Source of the DNA: Bacilli bacterium
GTDB lineage: Bacteria; Bacillota_I; Bacilli_A; RF39; UBA660
Direction of reading: 5' to 3'
DNA length: 54,975 nt
Assembly: GCA_028691955.1 (NCBI GenBank)
Contig: JAQUYH010000004.1
Span: 1-54,975, forward strand
Part shown: piece after piece, positions 1 through 31,674 of the stretch
How positions within the stretch are numbered: the stretch's first letter is position 1
How the letters are laid out: every line of letters begins with the position of its first letter
The notes under the pieces: model-generated
The model's input: the letters and a program-made list of their open reading frames with translations, nothing else
The model's database searches: none
Told to the model about the DNA's origin: nothing
Program-made: the position numbers and the translations under genes

Positions 1-115
1 TGATGAATATATAAAAGCTGAAACATTAGCTTTAAATATTATTAAAAAAGAAGATTTACAAGAAGAAACAGATATTAACGGACATATTGCTCACTTCGAT
101 GTAGTAAAAAAATAA
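1..115 (+). CDS. ileS: C-terminal end of a synthetase, probably isoleucyl-tRNA synthetase (partial)
   Basis: The frame opening at base 2 encodes the last 37 residues of a protein and stops at TAA 113-115. The peptide contains YIKAETLALNII and ends DINGHIAHFDVVKK. An ETLA motif followed by a short beta-rich tail ending in VxK matches what I know of the extreme C-terminus of eukaryote-type bacterial IleRS. The rest lies outside the window, so the name rests on a short tail and could be wrong. A terminator hairpin begins inside the stop codon. Confidence 0.4.
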   Translation, partial: DEYIKAETLALNIIKKEDLQEETDINGHIAHFDVVKK

Positions 116-142
116 CTATTAGAAAAAACTAATAGTTTTTTT
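114..142 (+). terminator. Intrinsic terminator after the partial synthetase gene
   Basis: A perfect 9-bp stem (AACTATTAG at 114-122, CTAATAGTT at 129-137) with an A-rich loop runs into a T tract at 136-142. Nearly the same stem recurs at 2041-2068. Confidence 0.85.
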
Positions 143-158
143 AATGATTATCTATAAA

Positions 159-187
159 TTGCATTTATTAAATATAAAAGATATAAT
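159..187 (+). promoter_or_regulatory. Sigma-A-type promoter of the ferritin-like gene
   Basis: TTGCAT at 159-164 and TATAAT at 182-187 are separated by 17 bp. They lie between the upstream terminator and the Shine-Dalgarno sequence of the gene starting at 212. Confidence 0.7.
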
Positions 188-211
188 GAAATTAGAAGGG
201 TGGGATTATTT

Positions 212-511
212 ATGGCAGAATTTGGTAATTCTTTTTCATTGCTAGCAAAAGAAAAAAAGTTGACAGATAGTGAATTAGTCAGAGCTATTAGATTTATGAT
301 AGCAGCAGAATATGAAGCAGTTCAGTTATATATGCAACTTGCAGAGTCTACTACAAATAAGTTAGCGGTTGATGTGTTAAAAGAAATAGCCAATGAAGAA
401 CGTGTTCATGCAGGAGAGTTTTTAAAATTATTATATGAATTAGAACCAGAAGAAAAAAAACTTTATGCACAAGGAGCAAAAGAAGTAGAAGAAATAATTG
501 AAGAACTATAA
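212..511 (+). CDS. Small ferritin-like protein of the encapsulated-ferritin type
   Basis: This is a 99-residue all-helical protein with two iron-ligand-like helices: EYEAVQLYMQLAE at about residues 34-46 and EIANEERVHAGEF at about 61-73. That Glu...ExxH pattern in a half-length, two-helix chain is typical of encapsulated ferritin/Flp-type proteins, which dimerise to complete a ferroxidase site, usually inside encapsulin shells. The tail LYELEPEEKKLYAQGAKEVEEII also fits that family. ATG 212 is preferred over GTG 200 because AGAAGGGTGGG lies just upstream of it. No encapsulin gene is visible in the window. Iron storage or peroxide protection is inferred from the family. It is probably transcribed with the lipoprotein gene that starts 17 bp downstream. 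Confidence 0.75.
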   Translation: MAEFGNSFSLLAKEKKLTDSELVRAIRFMIAAEYEAVQLYMQLAESTTNKLAVDVLKEIANEERVHAGEFLKLLYELEPEEKKLYAQGAKEVEEIIEEL

Positions 512-24816: not shown

Positions 24817-24886
24817 TATTGATTAAAAATTTATATAATCTATGTTATAATCTTTATAAGACAGTCATGCTAAGGGAGTGAAAAAA

Positions 24887-26824
24887 TTGAGAAAAGGATT
24901 TACTTTGATAGAATTATTAGCCACAATTGTTATTCTTGCAATTATAGCAGTAATAGGAGGAACAATAATATTAGGTGTTATAGATAAAGCGAAAGAGCAA
25001 GCGTTTTTAAGAAGTGTAGAATCATCGTTAAATTCATTTGATTTTTTAAGACAATATAATGAAAACGGCATTGAAACTATAAATATAACGAGTGAAACAT
25101 TAAACTTAGAAAACAATAATTTTATAGGTGGAGATATAGTATTAGATGAGGAAGGCAATACCAAAGCATTATATGTAACAGATGGAAATTATTGTGCAAA
25201 TGGGATATTGGGAAATTTAGTTGTTACTTTAGGTAATTGTAATCAAGATTTAGCCGCACCAACAGTAACTATAGAAACAATAGAATCAATAGATAAAAGT
25301 GAACTAACAATCAGACTAAATGCATTAGATAGTGGTTTAGGACTAGATCCAAAAGCATACTCTTTTGATAATGGAACAACATGGCAAGAAAGTAATGAAT
25401 TAATCATAGATAGTAGCTATAATGGAACGGTAAAAGTAAGAGATATAGTAAATAATATAACAACAATAGATTACAATATAAGTAAGTTAACAATAGATGC
25501 AAACGGTGGCGTAATAGAAGGATTAGACGAAGTAACTATTCATTGGCTAGAAAATGACGAAACCATGAATGTAAGTAATCCAATAAAGATAGGCTATACT
25601 TTTACAGGATGGACTATAGAAGGACCCGATGGTAGCATAGATGGAACAACGTTTACTATGGGAAGTGATGAAGCAACTCTAACAGCTAATTATATAAATG
25701 CAACGTTTACTTTAACAATAAATCCAAATGGTGGTGTATGGGACACATATACCGATATTCAAACATATAGCAAAATATATGAAAGTGAGACAACAATAAA
25801 TAACCCAACCAGAACAGGTTATACATTTAATGGTTGGACAGTAAGTGGATCAGGTAGTTCGATAAGTGAAACAACATTTACAATGGGAAATGAGGATGCT
25901 AGCTTAACAGCTAATTGGGCAATCAATACATATACTTTAACAATAAATGCAAACGGTGGATCATGGAGTGGCACAACACCGCAGACTCTAAACTATCAAG
26001 CTACATCAACAATAAATAACCCAACCAGAACGAGCTATACATTTCTTGGTTGGACAGTAAGTGGGGCTGGGAGTTCAATAAGTGGGACAACATTTACAAT
26101 GGGATATGCCAATGCCACATTAACAGCAAACTGGGTAATAACTATAACAAATTTTGCATATACCGGAGGTATACAAACGTTTACTGTTCCTGCAACAGGA
26201 ACATACAAAATAGAGGTATGGGGAGCTCAAGGTGGTGGATCAGGGGCTCTCGGAGGGTACTCATACGGTTATAAAACACTAACACAAGGAACAACTCTTT
26301 ATATGGTAGTCGGTGGAACAACATCTGGTGTATCAGGCGGATACAATGGTGGAGGTTCAACACCGAGTGGAGGATATGGCGGCGGCGGAGCCACACACAT
26401 AGCGACATCCACAGGACTACTCTCATCATTATCATCAAATCACGCTGCGGTAGTAATAGTTGCCGGCGGTGGTGGAGGAATAAGTGCTTGTTGTGCTGGA
26501 GGAACAGGTGGTGGAACAACCGGAGGAAATAGTTCAGGTACATCATATTGGACAGCCAAATATGCAAGTGGTGGAACACAAACCTCAGGAGGATACAATG
26601 TAGTTTTAGGTAGCGCTTACGGTTCATTTGGCTTAGGATCTGCATCAACCGGTGCTAACGGCGGAGGCGGAGGCGGAGGCTGGTATGGCGGAGGAGGCGG
26701 CACTTGGGGAACAGAAAATTCAGGTGGCGGCGGAGGCTCCGGTTATATTGGCGGTGTTACAAGTGGCTCTATGACAAATGGAAGTAGAAGTGGTAATGGT
26801 TATGCTAGATTTACTTATCAATAA
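24887..26824 (+). CDS. Pilin-like surface protein with Listeria-Bacteroides repeats and a glycine-rich C-terminus
   Basis: The product (about 645 residues) begins with a prepilin-type leader (RKG|FTLIELLATIVIL). From about 200 come three copies of the InlB-B/Listeria-Bacteroides repeat: LTIDANGGV, LTINPNGGV and LTINANGGS lead units that each contain YTF.GWT and LTAN. From about 415 a region FAYTGGIQTFTVPATGTYKIEVWGAQGG opens a Gly-rich domain with long glycine runs, seen in secreted Gram-positive proteins. TTG 24887 has AGGGAG at a normal distance; GTG 24878 directly abuts that site and is less likely. No sortase signal at the C-terminus, so anchoring should be through the pilin-like helix. 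Confidence 0.8.
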   Translation: MRKGFTLIELLATIVILAIIAVIGGTIILGVIDKAKEQAFLRSVESSLNSFDFLRQYNENGIETINITSETLNLENNNFIGGDIVLDEEGNTKALYVTDGNYCANGILGNLVVTLGNCNQDLAAPTVTIETIESIDKSELTIRLNALDSGLGLDPKAYSFDNGTTWQESNELIIDSSYNGTVKVRDIVNNITTIDYNISKLTIDANGGVIEGLDEVTIHWLENDETMNVSNPIKIGYTFTGWTIEGPDGSIDGTTFTMGSDEATLTANYINATFTLTINPNGGVWDTYTDIQTYSKIYESETTINNPTRTGYTFNGWTVSGSGSSISETTFTMGNEDASLTANWAINTYTLTINANGGSWSGTTPQTLNYQATSTINNPTRTSYTFLGWTVSGAGSSISGTTFTMGYANATLTANWVITITNFAYTGGIQTFTVPATGTYKIEVWGAQGGGSGALGGYSYGYKTLTQGTTLYMVVGGTTSGVSGGYNGGGSTPSGGYGGGGATHIATSTGLLSSLSSNHAAVVIVAGGGGGISACCAGGTGGGTTGGNSSGTSYWTAKYASGGTQTSGGYNVVLGSAYGSFGLGSASTGANGGGGGGGWYGGGGGTWGTENSGGGGGSGYIGGVTSGSMTNGSRSGNGYARFTYQ

Positions 26825-27038: not shown

Positions 27039-29012
27039 ATGAAAAAGGGTTTCACTTTGATAGAACTTTTAGCAGTAATTGTAATATTGGCTATAATAGC
27101 TGTTATTGCAACTCCAATAATATTAAATGTAATAGAAGATAGTAAGGAAAAAGCTTTTGATATAGAAGCATCTAATATTGAAAAAGCAGCAGAGTATTAT
27201 TTAACTGATGATTTTAAAATAGCAGATTTAAATAATTATGAAGAATATTATATCAAAGTAAGTGATTTAGCAGGTTTTCTAAATCCTATAACTGATGATA
27301 TAAAAGATAATTATGTTGTAGTTAAAAAGAGTGGAAATAATATAAGTTATTATTATACAGGAAGAGACAATAATCCCTATACATATTCAGACAATGAAAC
27401 ATTAAAAGAAATTATAGAAAATAATATTGGTTCGCATATAGCAAACAATGTAGTAGTAAATGGAGTAACAGTAAATAAGATCATAGGAACTAAAGCAGAT
27501 AAAAAGACTATTAAAAATTGGGTATATTATTCAGGACAATTATGGCAAGTATTAGAAACAACAGATGATTATGTTAAGCTAATTACAGCTAATTCTGTAA
27601 CATCTATAGCTTATGGTGAGACTTCTGAATGGAGTACTTCTTGGGTAAGAAAATGGTTGAATGAAATAGATGATATATCAAATCAAGATGGAATATACTA
27701 TCATAATTTAAGTAGAGCAGATTTATTATTAGATGGAAGCTTCTGTTTAGATGAACCGACTAATGTAACAGAAGAGTCTTTTACAATAAACGGTGAGACA
27801 AGAAATAAGGTAACATCATTCACTAAAATAAACACATGTTCTTCTGTTTCTACAGATAAGATAGGACTAATGACCTTTGAAGACTATGTATATGCCTTAA
27901 ATGGAACCGATGGTATAACAGGAGCTTTAGGAGGATCATTTATAGATGAAGATGAAATAGAGTGGACCATGACTAAATATACTGTAGGTGGAGTAACCAA
28001 TAAAACATGGCATACTTATTATCAAGTTCCGTCAAATATAGAACATGGTTGGAATGGGACAACTGACTATGGTAAAGGAGTAAGACCAGTAATCTATCTA
28101 TCATCCAATTTATTAGTAGAAGATAATACAGACTCAGATTATGGACAAATAACCAATCCATATGTAATAGTAGGAGAACAAATAGCTGAAACAAATGATT
28201 TATTAAATACTGCAACAATAGGAAGTTATGTATATATAAGTGAAGAAAACAATCCAAACACAACAACAACAGAAACCGTAACTGACAATATAAGTTATAC
28301 CTATGATAAGACAAAAGTGAGATATAGAGTAATAGGAATAAATAGCGACGGAAGTACTAAACTACAAAGAGCAGATGTTTTAAAAAATTTATCTGCAACA
28401 ATAGCTATAAGCTTCAACACATATATACCATTTTATTATTATAATAATGGTGAAAATTCAACAAGTTGTGCATACTTAAATGGTGCATACTATACTGGTG
28501 GATGTACAAATCATAATTACTTTCAACCAACGCAAGGAAGTGGAGCATATGCTTATGTCGAAAGTGAAAATATAGGCTATTTTCTAAATAATACGACAAA
28601 TGGATACTATACATGGCTCTCTGATGAAGTGAAAGATAACTTAGTAAATTATAATTGGAATTTAAATGTAAGTTCTAACAGTTATGATTATACAAGAAGT
28701 TTATTTAACACTGACACAAGTGGAATATATCCATCCAAAATAAATGATGGAGTTGTAACCGCCTATATAGGTTTACCTTTATTGGGGGACATATTTGCCG
28801 CTAATGATATAAATACAGCTTATTGGTTAATAAATAGATGGTCAGGCTCGTCTTCCAGTATCTCATATGTGGTCTACAACGGGTATGCAGCCAGCAACTA
28901 TGCTTCTAGCTACTGGCATGCTGCTCGTCCAGTCATCAATATTTTATCAACAGTTAACATATCTAGTGGAGATGGAACATCTAATAATCCATATATATTA
29001 AATCTTAATTAA
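27039..29012 (+). CDS. Large pilin-like surface protein, paralogue of the gene at 2979
   Basis: The 657-residue protein has the same prepilin leader (MKKG|FTLIELLAVIV), the same two tandem modules and long stretches identical to the protein at 2979-4955 (for example DDIKDNYVVVKKSGN and IGLMTFEDYVYALNGTDGI). The modules end with GVRPVIYL and AARPVINIL, each followed by a G.(G)T..NPY segment. Divergence from the paralogue is greatest just before the final ARPVI. There, codons 28845-28935 are unusually rich in G or C at the third position (GGC, TCG, TCC, GTG, GTC, TAC, AAC, GGG, GCC, AGC), unlike the rest of the gene. That local change could mark recombination or a variable repeat. AGGAGG lies before the ATG. 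Confidence 0.82.
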   Translation: MKKGFTLIELLAVIVILAIIAVIATPIILNVIEDSKEKAFDIEASNIEKAAEYYLTDDFKIADLNNYEEYYIKVSDLAGFLNPITDDIKDNYVVVKKSGNNISYYYTGRDNNPYTYSDNETLKEIIENNIGSHIANNVVVNGVTVNKIIGTKADKKTIKNWVYYSGQLWQVLETTDDYVKLITANSVTSIAYGETSEWSTSWVRKWLNEIDDISNQDGIYYHNLSRADLLLDGSFCLDEPTNVTEESFTINGETRNKVTSFTKINTCSSVSTDKIGLMTFEDYVYALNGTDGITGALGGSFIDEDEIEWTMTKYTVGGVTNKTWHTYYQVPSNIEHGWNGTTDYGKGVRPVIYLSSNLLVEDNTDSDYGQITNPYVIVGEQIAETNDLLNTATIGSYVYISEENNPNTTTTETVTDNISYTYDKTKVRYRVIGINSDGSTKLQRADVLKNLSATIAISFNTYIPFYYYNNGENSTSCAYLNGAYYTGGCTNHNYFQPTQGSGAYAYVESENIGYFLNNTTNGYYTWLSDEVKDNLVNYNWNLNVSSNSYDYTRSLFNTDTSGIYPSKINDGVVTAYIGLPLLGDIFAANDINTAYWLINRWSGSSSSISYVVYNGYAASNYASSYWHAARPVINILSTVNISSGDGTSNNPYILNLN

Positions 29013-29093: not shown

Positions 29094-31184
29094 ATGAAGA
29101 AGATTTTTACAACAATAATATTATTAACAAGCATATTTTTATTTAATATAAACAACACATATGCTTTAACCACAACTTTAGAACCAATAGAAAATGTATA
29201 TTATCAAATGACTAGTATAAACTATAGCTTAATGAGTAAAGAGGAATATACAACAGTAGGTAATAATCTAGTGTATTGTCTTGATCCAAAGAAAAAAGTC
29301 TATAGTAATTTAGAATATAATACAGTAGAAGATATTGATTTAAGTGATGAAATAAAAGATAGAATCAATTTAATAGGATATTATGGCTTTGAATATATAA
29401 ATCATAATAATTATAAATACTATTTAGCAGCTCAAGAACTAATATGGAACGTAGTAGAACCAAATATAAAAATAATGTGGTTAACAAAAACAGCAGATAG
29501 AGTATATAACAAAATAAATGTAGACTTAGAAAAAAAAGAAATCCAAGCTTTAATTGATAATCATTATAACAATTTATCATTAAATAACAGTACTTACAAA
29601 CTCAGCCTAAACGAAACTATAAAATTATATGATGATGATTTAAGCACTTATACTATCAGTGATAGTTTAAGTACTATAGTGAGTAAAAATAATGAATTAT
29701 CAATTACAAAAAAAACTTTAGAAGATGAAATAATTACGCTAACAAAGTATATTGGAAATAATCAAGAACCTGTTTATTATAAAGCAGAAGGGTACCAAAC
29801 ACTATTTTATCCGGGAGTTAATACAACTATAACAAATTACATTAATTTAACTGTCCCATTAGGTAGTATCAAATTATCACTAAAAGATCTTGATAACAAC
29901 TCTTTGATAGGTAATGGATTATCTACATTAGCAAATAGCAAATACACCCTATACGACAAAGATATGAATATCATAAAAGACATAAATTTTAATAATGAAG
30001 TTGTTTTATTAAATGATTTACAATATGGACAGTATTATTTAAAAGAAAAACAAAGTGGATATGGATATCAATTAGATACAAATATATATCCATTTGAAAT
30101 AAATAAAGACAATGACTTTATAGAATTAGATTTATTTAATAAAATAATAGAAGTCTATTTAACAATAAAAAAAACATATGATTTAGAATATAATGAAGAA
30201 AATGCAGAGTTTAAAATAACTGATAGTTTTAATAATGAATATATATTAACTACTGATATAAATGGTATAGCTAGTATTAATTTACCATATAATCACTATA
30301 TAATAGAACAAATATCAGGCAAAAAATACTATAAATTAATTGATACATTTGAAATTAATATAAATAGTTTTGATGATTTATATTATGAATTAAATACAAA
30401 CAAAATAGTTTCAAACTTAATAGTATACAACATAGACTCAAGTAATAATGAACTTATAAAAGATTTAGCTAAATTTAAACTATTTGATGTGGAAGAAGAT
30501 AAATATGTAACAATAAGTAATTTAGATGAAATATATACAAACAATGGTTTAATTAATTATGATAATATACACTTAGGTAAGTATATTTTAGAGCAAGTAG
30601 AAAGCTGTTATTATTATAAAATAAATACAGAAAAAATATATTTTGAACTAACAAGTGAAGATAAAGATATATATATTGCTAATGACTTTGATTACTACAC
30701 GTTTAGTATTAATTTATTAGACGAAAAAGATAATAAAATAGAAGAAGCTACATTTGAAATATATAGTAATCAAGACATAATATATAGTGGAGGAAAAAGG
30801 TATAGCAAAGATGAATTAATGCAAACTGTTACAAAATATACAGCTACCAATTTACCTAAAGGAAGTTATTATATTATACAAAAGACGACTAAAGATGGTT
30901 ACAAAATAGATGAAAGCATTTATACGATTAATGTGTTAAAAGATAATGAAATAACTATACATAATTACCCAATAAAAGTAGACATTCCTTTGATAGAAGA
31001 AATAAAAGTAGAAAGCGACATTATTACAGAAGAAAATAAAATAGCAGAAAACATACAAAATAGTGAAGAAAAAAAATATATAAAAATACCTGATACAGCA
31101 ATTAAAGAAGTAAAACTAAATCCAATATCAGCTTTGTTAATTATACTTATGGGATATATTATATTGAAGTATGCTAAAGCTTAA
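29094..31184 (+). CDS. Thioester/Cna-B adhesin with a sortase-like C-terminal signal
   Basis: The 696-residue protein has a signal peptide (about 1-24, cut after NNTYA), then a domain with VYCLDP (Cys62) and YYLAAQELIWNV (Gln114), which match the Cys and Gln of the thioester domain of Gram-positive adhesins that bond covalently to host molecules. From about 250 on are several SpaA/Cna-B-type beta domains with 'G.Y.L.E.....GY' ends (GQYYLKEKQSGYGY, GKYILEQVESCYYY, GSYYIIQKTTKDGY). The C-terminus has KIPDTA, a hydrophobic helix (about 676-692) and a basic KYAKA tail, which looks like a sorting signal with IPDTA in place of LPXTG. ATG 29094 follows GGGAGGA. The sortase gene overlaps its end. Confidence 0.82.
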   Translation: MKKIFTTIILLTSIFLFNINNTYALTTTLEPIENVYYQMTSINYSLMSKEEYTTVGNNLVYCLDPKKKVYSNLEYNTVEDIDLSDEIKDRINLIGYYGFEYINHNNYKYYLAAQELIWNVVEPNIKIMWLTKTADRVYNKINVDLEKKEIQALIDNHYNNLSLNNSTYKLSLNETIKLYDDDLSTYTISDSLSTIVSKNNELSITKKTLEDEIITLTKYIGNNQEPVYYKAEGYQTLFYPGVNTTITNYINLTVPLGSIKLSLKDLDNNSLIGNGLSTLANSKYTLYDKDMNIIKDINFNNEVVLLNDLQYGQYYLKEKQSGYGYQLDTNIYPFEINKDNDFIELDLFNKIIEVYLTIKKTYDLEYNEENAEFKITDSFNNEYILTTDINGIASINLPYNHYIIEQISGKKYYKLIDTFEININSFDDLYYELNTNKIVSNLIVYNIDSSNNELIKDLAKFKLFDVEEDKYVTISNLDEIYTNNGLINYDNIHLGKYILEQVESCYYYKINTEKIYFELTSEDKDIYIANDFDYYTFSINLLDEKDNKIEEATFEIYSNQDIIYSGGKRYSKDELMQTVTKYTATNLPKGSYYIIQKTTKDGYKIDESIYTINVLKDNEITIHNYPIKVDIPLIEEIKVESDIITEENKIAENIQNSEEKKYIKIPDTAIKEVKLNPISALLIILMGYIILKYAKA

Positions 31185-31674
31185 ATATTTTTTAACAATT
31201 ATCTTTATTTTAAGTATTATTTTATTATTACTAAATAAAAGTTTTATAAATAAAACAATTATTAAAAATATCTCAATATATGATGAAAACATAAATCAAG
31301 AAAATTATTTATATATTCCAGCTATTAACTTAAAAAATACCATATATGAAATAAATGATAATAAAAATAACGTAGACTATAATGTCGAATTAATTAGTAA
31401 CGATACAAATCATTTTATTTTAGCTGGACATAGTGGAATAGGAAAAACAGCATATTTTAATGATTTATGCAAACTAAATAAAGGTGATTTAATTTATTTT
31501 CTATACAATAATATCTACTATTCATATTACATAAATGAAATATATGAGATAGAAAAAAATGGATATTTCGAAATAAAAAAATATAATACAAAAGTGATAA
31601 ACTTAATAACTTGCAAAAACAATGTAAATAATATACAAGTTGTTTACGTTGGTTTCTTAAAAGAGAGTATTTAA
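31171..31674 (+). CDS. Sortase, probably dedicated to the preceding adhesin
   Basis: The 167-residue protein has an N-terminal membrane segment (about 5-21) and a sortase fold: LYIPAINLKNTIYE, FILAGHSGIGKTAYFNDL with His87, GDLIYFLYNNIYYSYYI, and INLITCKN with Cys148. The Arg expected a few residues later (the usual R[L/Y]VV element) is not present; the sequence is NNIQVVYVG. It overlaps the adhesin gene by 14 bp. Its likely substrate is the IPDTA signal of that adhesin. It is short but contains the complete core except for the Arg. Class cannot be set firmly; the layout resembles small class D/E enzymes. Confidence 0.82.
   Translation: MLKLKYFLTIIFILSIILLLLNKSFINKTIIKNISIYDENINQENYLYIPAINLKNTIYEINDNKNNVDYNVELISNDTNHFILAGHSGIGKTAYFNDLCKLNKGDLIYFLYNNIYYSYYINEIYEIEKNGYFEIKKYNTKVINLITCKNNVNNIQVVYVGFLKESI

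Follow-up and report, generated by a model that had tools for sequence, protein, structure and literature searches.

A clade of sortases found in one family of uncultured gut Bacilli carries glutamine at the site of the catalytic arginine, and is paired with adhesins whose sorting signals mostly start with valine or isoleucine instead of leucine. Its member described here is encoded in a window of 54,975 nucleotides (the whole stretch of DNA analysed), where its gene overlaps that of its adhesin (Table 1). The observation extends beyond this single protein, as it is clade-wide and larger than first claimed. The enzyme is likely to be an active, dedicated sortase in which glutamine replaces arginine in holding the substrate backbone, although catalysis, the roles of Gln156 and Lys129 and the nature of the acceptor are inferred.

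Table 1. Coordinates of the adhesin and sortase features in the window and of two adhesin-sortase fusions in the genomes of relatives
Feature	Position	Strand	Details
Adhesin gene, 696 aa	29094..31184	+	Signal peptide, thioester domain, SpaA (prealbumin-like) repeats, IPDTA signal; start ATG at 29094, stop ends at 31184; from ORF and PF08341/PF17802
Cys62 codon (putative thioester Cys)	29277..29279	+	Position from sequence; near-invariant in 35 partner adhesins
Gln114 codon (putative thioester Gln)	29433..29435	+	Position from sequence; near-invariant in 35 partner adhesins
SpaA domains	29922..30965	+	Matches 29922-30140, 30417-30677 and 30702-30965; the only SpaA matches of the genome (E <= 0.01)
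Cell-wall sorting signal	31086..31181	+	IPDTA (31086-31100), hydrophobic segment, KYAKA tail; from sequence and signal profile A6 (E 1e-8)
Sortase gene, 167 aa	31171..31674	+	N-terminal membrane helix; start ATG at 31171, stop ends at 31674; 14-nt overlap with adhesin gene; PF04203, AlphaFold model, structural match 3re9
His87 codon	31429..31431	+	59/59 clade rows; 80/80 named rows (best 80 of 264)
Lys129-Asn130-Gly131 codons	31555..31563	+	Start of the beta6/beta7 loop; Lys129 and Gly131 are clade markers
Thr147 and Cys148 codons	31609..31614	+	Each 59/59 clade rows
Gln156 codon	31636..31638	+	Catalytic-Arg site, start of beta8; from alignment, model, structural alignment and conservation
Fusion L393	617-3568	minus	Adhesin, VPNTG, membrane helices, Gln-type sortase
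Fusion L394	1031-3970		Adhesin, VPNTG, membrane helices, Gln-type sortase

The arginine site of the window sortase

The window sortase has the features that define the superfamily, namely a PF04203 match above the cut-off (48.7-49.1 bits against 26.6), a predicted beta-barrel fold, a cysteine following TLxT and a histidine of the catalytic type. This score, together with the conservation of glutamine at the site in question, excludes a chance match. What is not met is the canonical His-Cys-Arg arrangement of classes A-F: His87, Thr147 and Cys148 are present, and the start of beta8 holds no triad arginine, with Gln156 standing there instead within NNIQVVYVG. None of the NCBIfam class models reaches its cut-off (class C 39.4/160, class D 26.2/165, class E 19.6/160 bits), and only the general model TIGR01076 is passed (43.3/39.35). 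Among solved sequences, the best profile match is 4d70, the SrtD of C. perfringens (E 6e-15).

In the AlphaFold model (pLDDT 89.3), Cys148 ends strand 142-148 and residue 156 is the second of the next strand, 155-166, which is the beta7/beta8 layout. Structural alignment with VIA-align matched the protein to SrtC1 3re9 (Z 16.4, 123 residues, 2.7 Å) and to S. pyogenes SrtA 7s51 (Z 14.3). For the latter, the aligned ends (43..167 = 94..227) set residue 156 opposite residue 216, provided that the last strand is ungapped, and the sequence alignment agrees with this placement of Gln156. Residue 216 is the triad arginine of S. pyogenes SrtA, according to the part of the source available (PMC9520033). 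The initial annotation had recognized His87 and Cys148 in a small sortase, had found the expected arginine missing and had proposed a structure model as the check; all of this holds, with both residues at the positions given and Gln156 placed at the site by the model and the structural alignment. It had also stated that another arginine placed in the site would refute its reading. Since the 167-residue protein contains no arginine at all (0 Arg, 16 Lys), no relocated arginine is possible there, and the best arginine column of the clade reaches only 34 of 57 Gln rows, so that this candidate is excluded.

S. pyogenes SrtA has a single N-terminal membrane helix, like the window sortase. This class A enzyme (H142-C208-R216) also shares with it the fold, the Thr-Cys motif and the histidine, whereas it differs by Arg216 in place of Gln156, by a Leu-P-x-T-G signal where the clade has I/V-P-[DN]-T-x, and by a beta6/beta7 loop that starts with P-x-[DE] instead of K-x-G. 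Class C and D enzymes, represented by S. suis SrtC1 (3re9) and C. perfringens SrtD (4d70), provide the best structural and the best solved-sequence profile matches, but the window sortase lies far below the NCBIfam class cut-offs and lacks their triad arginine.

Distribution and origin of the glutamine

Clade counts were taken from an alignment of 153 sortase rows. Glutamine occupies the arginine site in 57 of the 59 clade rows, the two exceptions (one His, one Tyr) coming from one genome, G009, and His87, Thr147 and Cys148 are each invariant (59/59). Two other sequences with glutamine were excluded from the clade count: G015_C90, which belongs to a different class, and the split ORF G090_C17. 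Relatives in organism-named records, located via conserved stretches that exclude the arginine site, display Gln, Lys129, Gly131, Thr147, Cys148 and His87 in 80/80 cases each among the best 80 of 264 confirmed stretches, and these include Ca. Pelethosoma and Ca. Faecimonas. The window sortase is matched in 208/291 genomes of its family (E <= 0.001), and matches of profile A1 with E < 5e-18 are restricted to that family among 395 genomes of the class. As a control, arginine is found in 84/84 aligned sortases from other Bacilli families; the set had 86 distinct sortases before the removal of two in which no [TSA]C motif could be recognised. One tally search missed the window's own sortase, which was found by others, and its tallies are lower bounds. 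Outside the class Bacilli, coverage is provided only by the stretch search (best 80 of 264 kept) and by a plasmid search that returned only two matches, both Lactococcus class C; the sampling is mainly of Bacilli.

With the trait columns left out of its construction, the tree requires one Gln/Arg change when only rows with either residue are counted, and on this basis the replacement of arginine by glutamine is inferred to have arisen once, inside this one family. The enclosing clade of 61 rows (SH-aLRT 97) comprises the 57 Gln rows, the two exceptions and two Arg rows (G006_C23, G083_C37). Branch support inside the Gln clade is mostly weak.

Other sortases of the same bacteria also vary at this site. 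The family inventory comprises 109 ORFs, and omits three (G036:C21, G018:C1 and G009:C32) that have glutamine too. Lysine occupies the arginine site in 15/52 of its class-B-like sortase ORFs, for example TLSTCYNEDDKVVLHAKL in G027, and these Lys-type sequences (L269, L268, L180 and others) represent a second departure from arginine. A distant sortase-like group (TCTRFYG...VDAR; L255, L316, L318 and L319) carries Ser or Ile in the column aligned with the arginine site. It adjoins ORFs ending in G-x-G-[TS]-...-P-Y, like the window ORF at 27039-29012, but without the prepilin motif that the latter has at its start. Among the retrieved ORFs, six of the 35 sortase-bearing family genomes (G000, G001, G005, G013, G019 and G027) have no Arg-type sortase, a count affected by the uncertain alignment of the arginine site in distant sortase classes.

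As several sortase classes of the family deviate at the arginine site, a general relaxation is possible. Arginine could have disappeared through drift, the genome being reduced and AT-rich, leaving a weakened or ordinary sortase in which glutamine has no special role, and both the composition of the window sortase, which has lysines and no arginine, and the lysine of the class-B-like ORFs (15/52) would fit. Such drift is nevertheless unlikely: the site is occupied by glutamine and not by a mix of residues (57/59, and 80/80 among the best 80 of 264), 50 of the 109 aligned family sortases retain arginine, and Lys129 and Gly131 are fixed equally. The fixed glutamine thus argues against simple drift.

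Lys129 is present in 59/59 rows of the Gln clade versus 1/8 Arg-type sister rows, and it is the sole invariant basic residue of the Gln rows (57/57, against 34/57 for the best arginine column). Gly131 is found in 56/59 rows of the clade, while the eight sisters have Asp (six), Asn (one) or Glu (one). Position 129 is Glu in both basal Arg rows, which have Asp or Asn at position 131, and all 27 Arg rows that do not belong to class B carry Asp, Glu, Gln or Asn at 131. Among the 84 sortases from other families, 52 have Pro at position 129, and position 131 holds Asp or Glu in 51, is gapped in 14 and is never Gly. When the strand before it is aligned without gaps to solved sortases, residue 131 corresponds to the acid of the P-x-[DE] that starts the beta6/beta7 loop, presumably the equivalent of D165 in S. 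aureus SrtA, as inferred from the sequence of that enzyme. In the portion available of PMC13104033, the residue at the D165 position is one of five changed in the evolved SrtA pentamutant, and the beta6-beta7 loop is described as influencing specificity for P4, the first residue of the signal.

Adhesin partners and their sorting signals

The window adhesin belongs to the thioester-domain adhesins, as it combines a PF08341 match over residues 60-141 (30.4 bits, cut-off 22) with the Cys62/Gln114 pair, and it matches PF17802 (SpaA) with 100.4 bits. Its tail is IPDTAIKEVKLNPISALLIILMGYIILKYAKA. The signal is not L-P-x-T-G, since IPDTA retains Pro and Thr and has Leu and Gly substituted, and it is followed by a hydrophobic segment and a basic tail (ISALLIILMGYIIL-KYAKA) that satisfy the criterion for an LPXTG anchor. 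The thioester residues, the IPDTA signal, which is read directly in the tail, and the gene overlap, which is of 14 nt, were already part of the initial annotation and are borne out, positions included. The adhesins with TED (PF08341) and SpaA domains in Pfam share the thioester Cys/Gln, the SpaA stalk and a C-terminal sorting signal with the window protein, whose signal differs by its V/I-type beginning and whose partner sortase gene overlaps its own or, in the genomes of two relatives, is fused to it. Large secreted prepilin-like proteins are encoded just upstream of the adhesin: two, at 24878-26824 and 27039-29012, bear the prepilin N-methylation motif (PF07963), and the first additionally includes Listeria-Bacteroides repeats and a glycine-rich domain.

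Context was available for 121 distinct Gln sortases, 111 of them with an upstream ORF and 100 with a recognisable signal. A few mis-picked pentapeptides (L117, L119, L142, L159) were kept in the counts, and the Gln state of the 80 named rows was set by hand and afterwards verified. In these 100 signals, P4 is V in 82, I in seven, T in five, another residue (S, A, M, H or C) in six and Leu in none, P2 is D in 50 and N in 35, P1 is always Thr (100/100), and the fifth position is spread across 16 residues. In the partners of Arg-type family sortases (n=8), P4 is L in four, M in three and Y in one, and the fifth position shows seven different residues among the eight signals. Thus, Gln sortases pair mostly with [VI]P[DN]T followed by a variable residue and never with L-P-x-T, whereas Arg-type sortases of the family pair mostly with L/M-P-x-T. 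The distinctive part of the signal is the valine or isoleucine that replaces leucine at the first position. The fifth residue of IPDTA is excluded as the key change because that position is highly variable for Gln and Arg partners alike. Of the paired change in signal and enzyme first put forward, the accompaniment of glutamine by V/I at P4 remains, but the fifth residue is not distinctive. The basal Arg-type sortases L184 and L185 have partner tails LPQLY and LPDLY, with Leu at the cleavage-site Thr, if these are true signals.

Partner adhesins are encoded directly upstream of the Gln sortases, one partner per sortase being the rule, and the first ATG of the sortase precedes the stop of the partner in 84/100 pairs. 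The same-genus genome G001 has an identical 14-nt overlap and an IPDTG tail. Among 35 partners scanned, five of which belong to Arg-type sortases, SpaA domains are found in 35/35 and TED in 28/35, and Tyr61, Cys62 and Gln114 are near-invariant. Fusion ORFs of 984 and 980 aa (55% identical), carried by two genomes of one genus, are the best argument that enzyme and signal go together: in each, SpaA domains and VPNTG are combined with membrane helices and a Gln-bearing PF04203 domain, and TED exceeds its threshold in one only.

In its own genome, the window sortase is the only PF04203 match. A profile of 34 partner signals gave the window tail as its only convincing match (E 1e-8), the next (E 0.046) being a 357-aa ORF without terminal membrane anchor, judged not to be a signal. 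Multiple clients are excluded for this signal type, by the signal profile and a pattern search judged by eye. A proteome search for other IPDTA tails had been suggested at the outset, with many LPXTG proteins served by the enzyme as a refutation; one sortase and one such signal were found.

A pilus-type polymerase would join the SpaA-rich adhesins to one another and not to the wall. SpaA domains in 35/35 partners, a class C model as the best NCBIfam class score, though far below its cut-off (39.4 vs 160 bits), and a SrtC1 as top structural match all point that way. Such an enzyme is hard to reconcile with a single upstream partner as the rule, with the absence of a C-terminal membrane helix after Gln156 (the window protein ends 11 residues later) and with a genome devoid of a second, housekeeping sortase, and it is the least probable of the rival explanations. 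Four Mur-ligase and two penicillin-binding transpeptidase matches in the same genome make a peptidoglycan acceptor wall plausible. The family presumably forms part of the GTDB order RF39. Most RF39 are predicted to have a peptidoglycan wall, and RF39 does not appear among the orders listed without sortases in the accessible part of PMC10868615.

Proposed role of the glutamine

The favoured reading, a dedicated and active sortase, would make the two genes a self-contained surface-anchoring module. The adhesin would be exported with its IPDTA tail retained at the membrane, and the sortase from the overlapping gene would bind I-P-D-T in the usual groove. Cys148 would attack the Thr carbonyl with His87 as acid/base, the tail would be freed after Thr, and the acyl group would be handed to an amine acceptor, probably lipid II. 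The oxyanion may be stabilised by Thr147 and backbone amides, while Gln156 would do the job of the arginine of S. pyogenes SrtA by hydrogen bonding to backbone carbonyls of the substrate. Lys129, Gly131 and the P4 shift from L/M to V/I would be accommodating changes. The role of Lys129 is hypothetical and could be a contact with the P2 Asp/Asn or a substitute for the lost charge.

Within the part of PMC9520033 available, the arginine of S. pyogenes SrtA forms hydrogen bonds to the carbonyls of P4 and P3, that of P1 faces away, Thr207 and two amides constitute the oxyanion hole, and R216A is inactive, with the authors calling for further work on the arginine. An Arg-to-Ala change also inactivates an Arg-dependent sortase in the excerpt at hand of PMC13257024. 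SrtA-beta, an evolved S. aureus SrtA that is selective for LMVGG and in which Ser occupies the R197 position, is a working sortase without arginine and with a changed motif, as far as the available parts of PMC9520033 and PMC13104033 describe it; it is lab-made and has Ser, whereas the loss in the window clade is natural, to Gln, and fixed across the clade.

Since Thr and Cys are kept, arginine is lost and the signal is altered at P4, whose carbonyl is held by arginine, Gln156 is inferred to take over backbone binding. Altered substrate positioning is likelier than altered chemistry. Thus, of the dedicated type with altered chemistry or a Gln substitute first suggested, the dedicated type with Gln finds support at clade level, but altered chemistry has not been shown. 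Loss of the arginine is not a prerequisite for V/I at P4, since class C sortases are known that possess it and process IPxTG signals. Because all changes arose once, the co-occurrence of Gln156, Lys129, Gly131 and V/I at P4 amounts to one phylogenetic event, and functional coupling is unproven.

The enzyme might also be no transpeptidase, acting as a hydrolase that cleaves and releases the adhesin or as a mere holder. Arg-to-Ala sortases were inactive in two studies, in so far as their available parts report (PMC9520033, PMC13257024), and the unusually variable residue after Thr in the partner signals fits plain cleavage. However, this variability is also seen with Arg-type family sortases (eight signals, seven residues), His, Thr and Cys are invariant (59/59), and anchored proteins typically have such a signal, membrane helix and basic tail, so that either role appears very improbable. 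Beyond the dedicated sortase preferred here, a more far-reaching proposal remains tentative: a rewired natural sortase class, in which positive charge left the arginine site and Lys129 is the only invariant basic residue, in the beta6/beta7 loop and two residues before a position that was formerly acidic. Arginine would then never have been catalytic but a substrate clamp, its loss would have changed the recognised motif, L-P-x-T giving way to [VI]-P-[DN]-T, and some species would have the enzyme and its sole substrate in one self-sorting polypeptide.

In a literature search with most subscription journals outside its scope, neither natural Gln-type sortases nor fusions of an adhesin with a sortase were found to have been reported. 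The accessible text of PMC13257024 presents the arginine as an indispensable residue that all sortases share, while the passages available from PMC9520033 and PMC13104033 state that further work on its precise function is needed and name substrate binding as a possibility. The clade is a warning that sortases should not be annotated by their arginine. If the inferred activity is real, its enzymes may also provide a scaffold for ligases that are specific for V/I-P-[DN]-T and tolerant at the fifth position. Because the clade does without the arginine over many genera, and has co-fixed changes as well as matched substrates and close sisters of the Arg type, it makes the role of the arginine directly testable, and constitutes a natural test of what this residue does in sortases.
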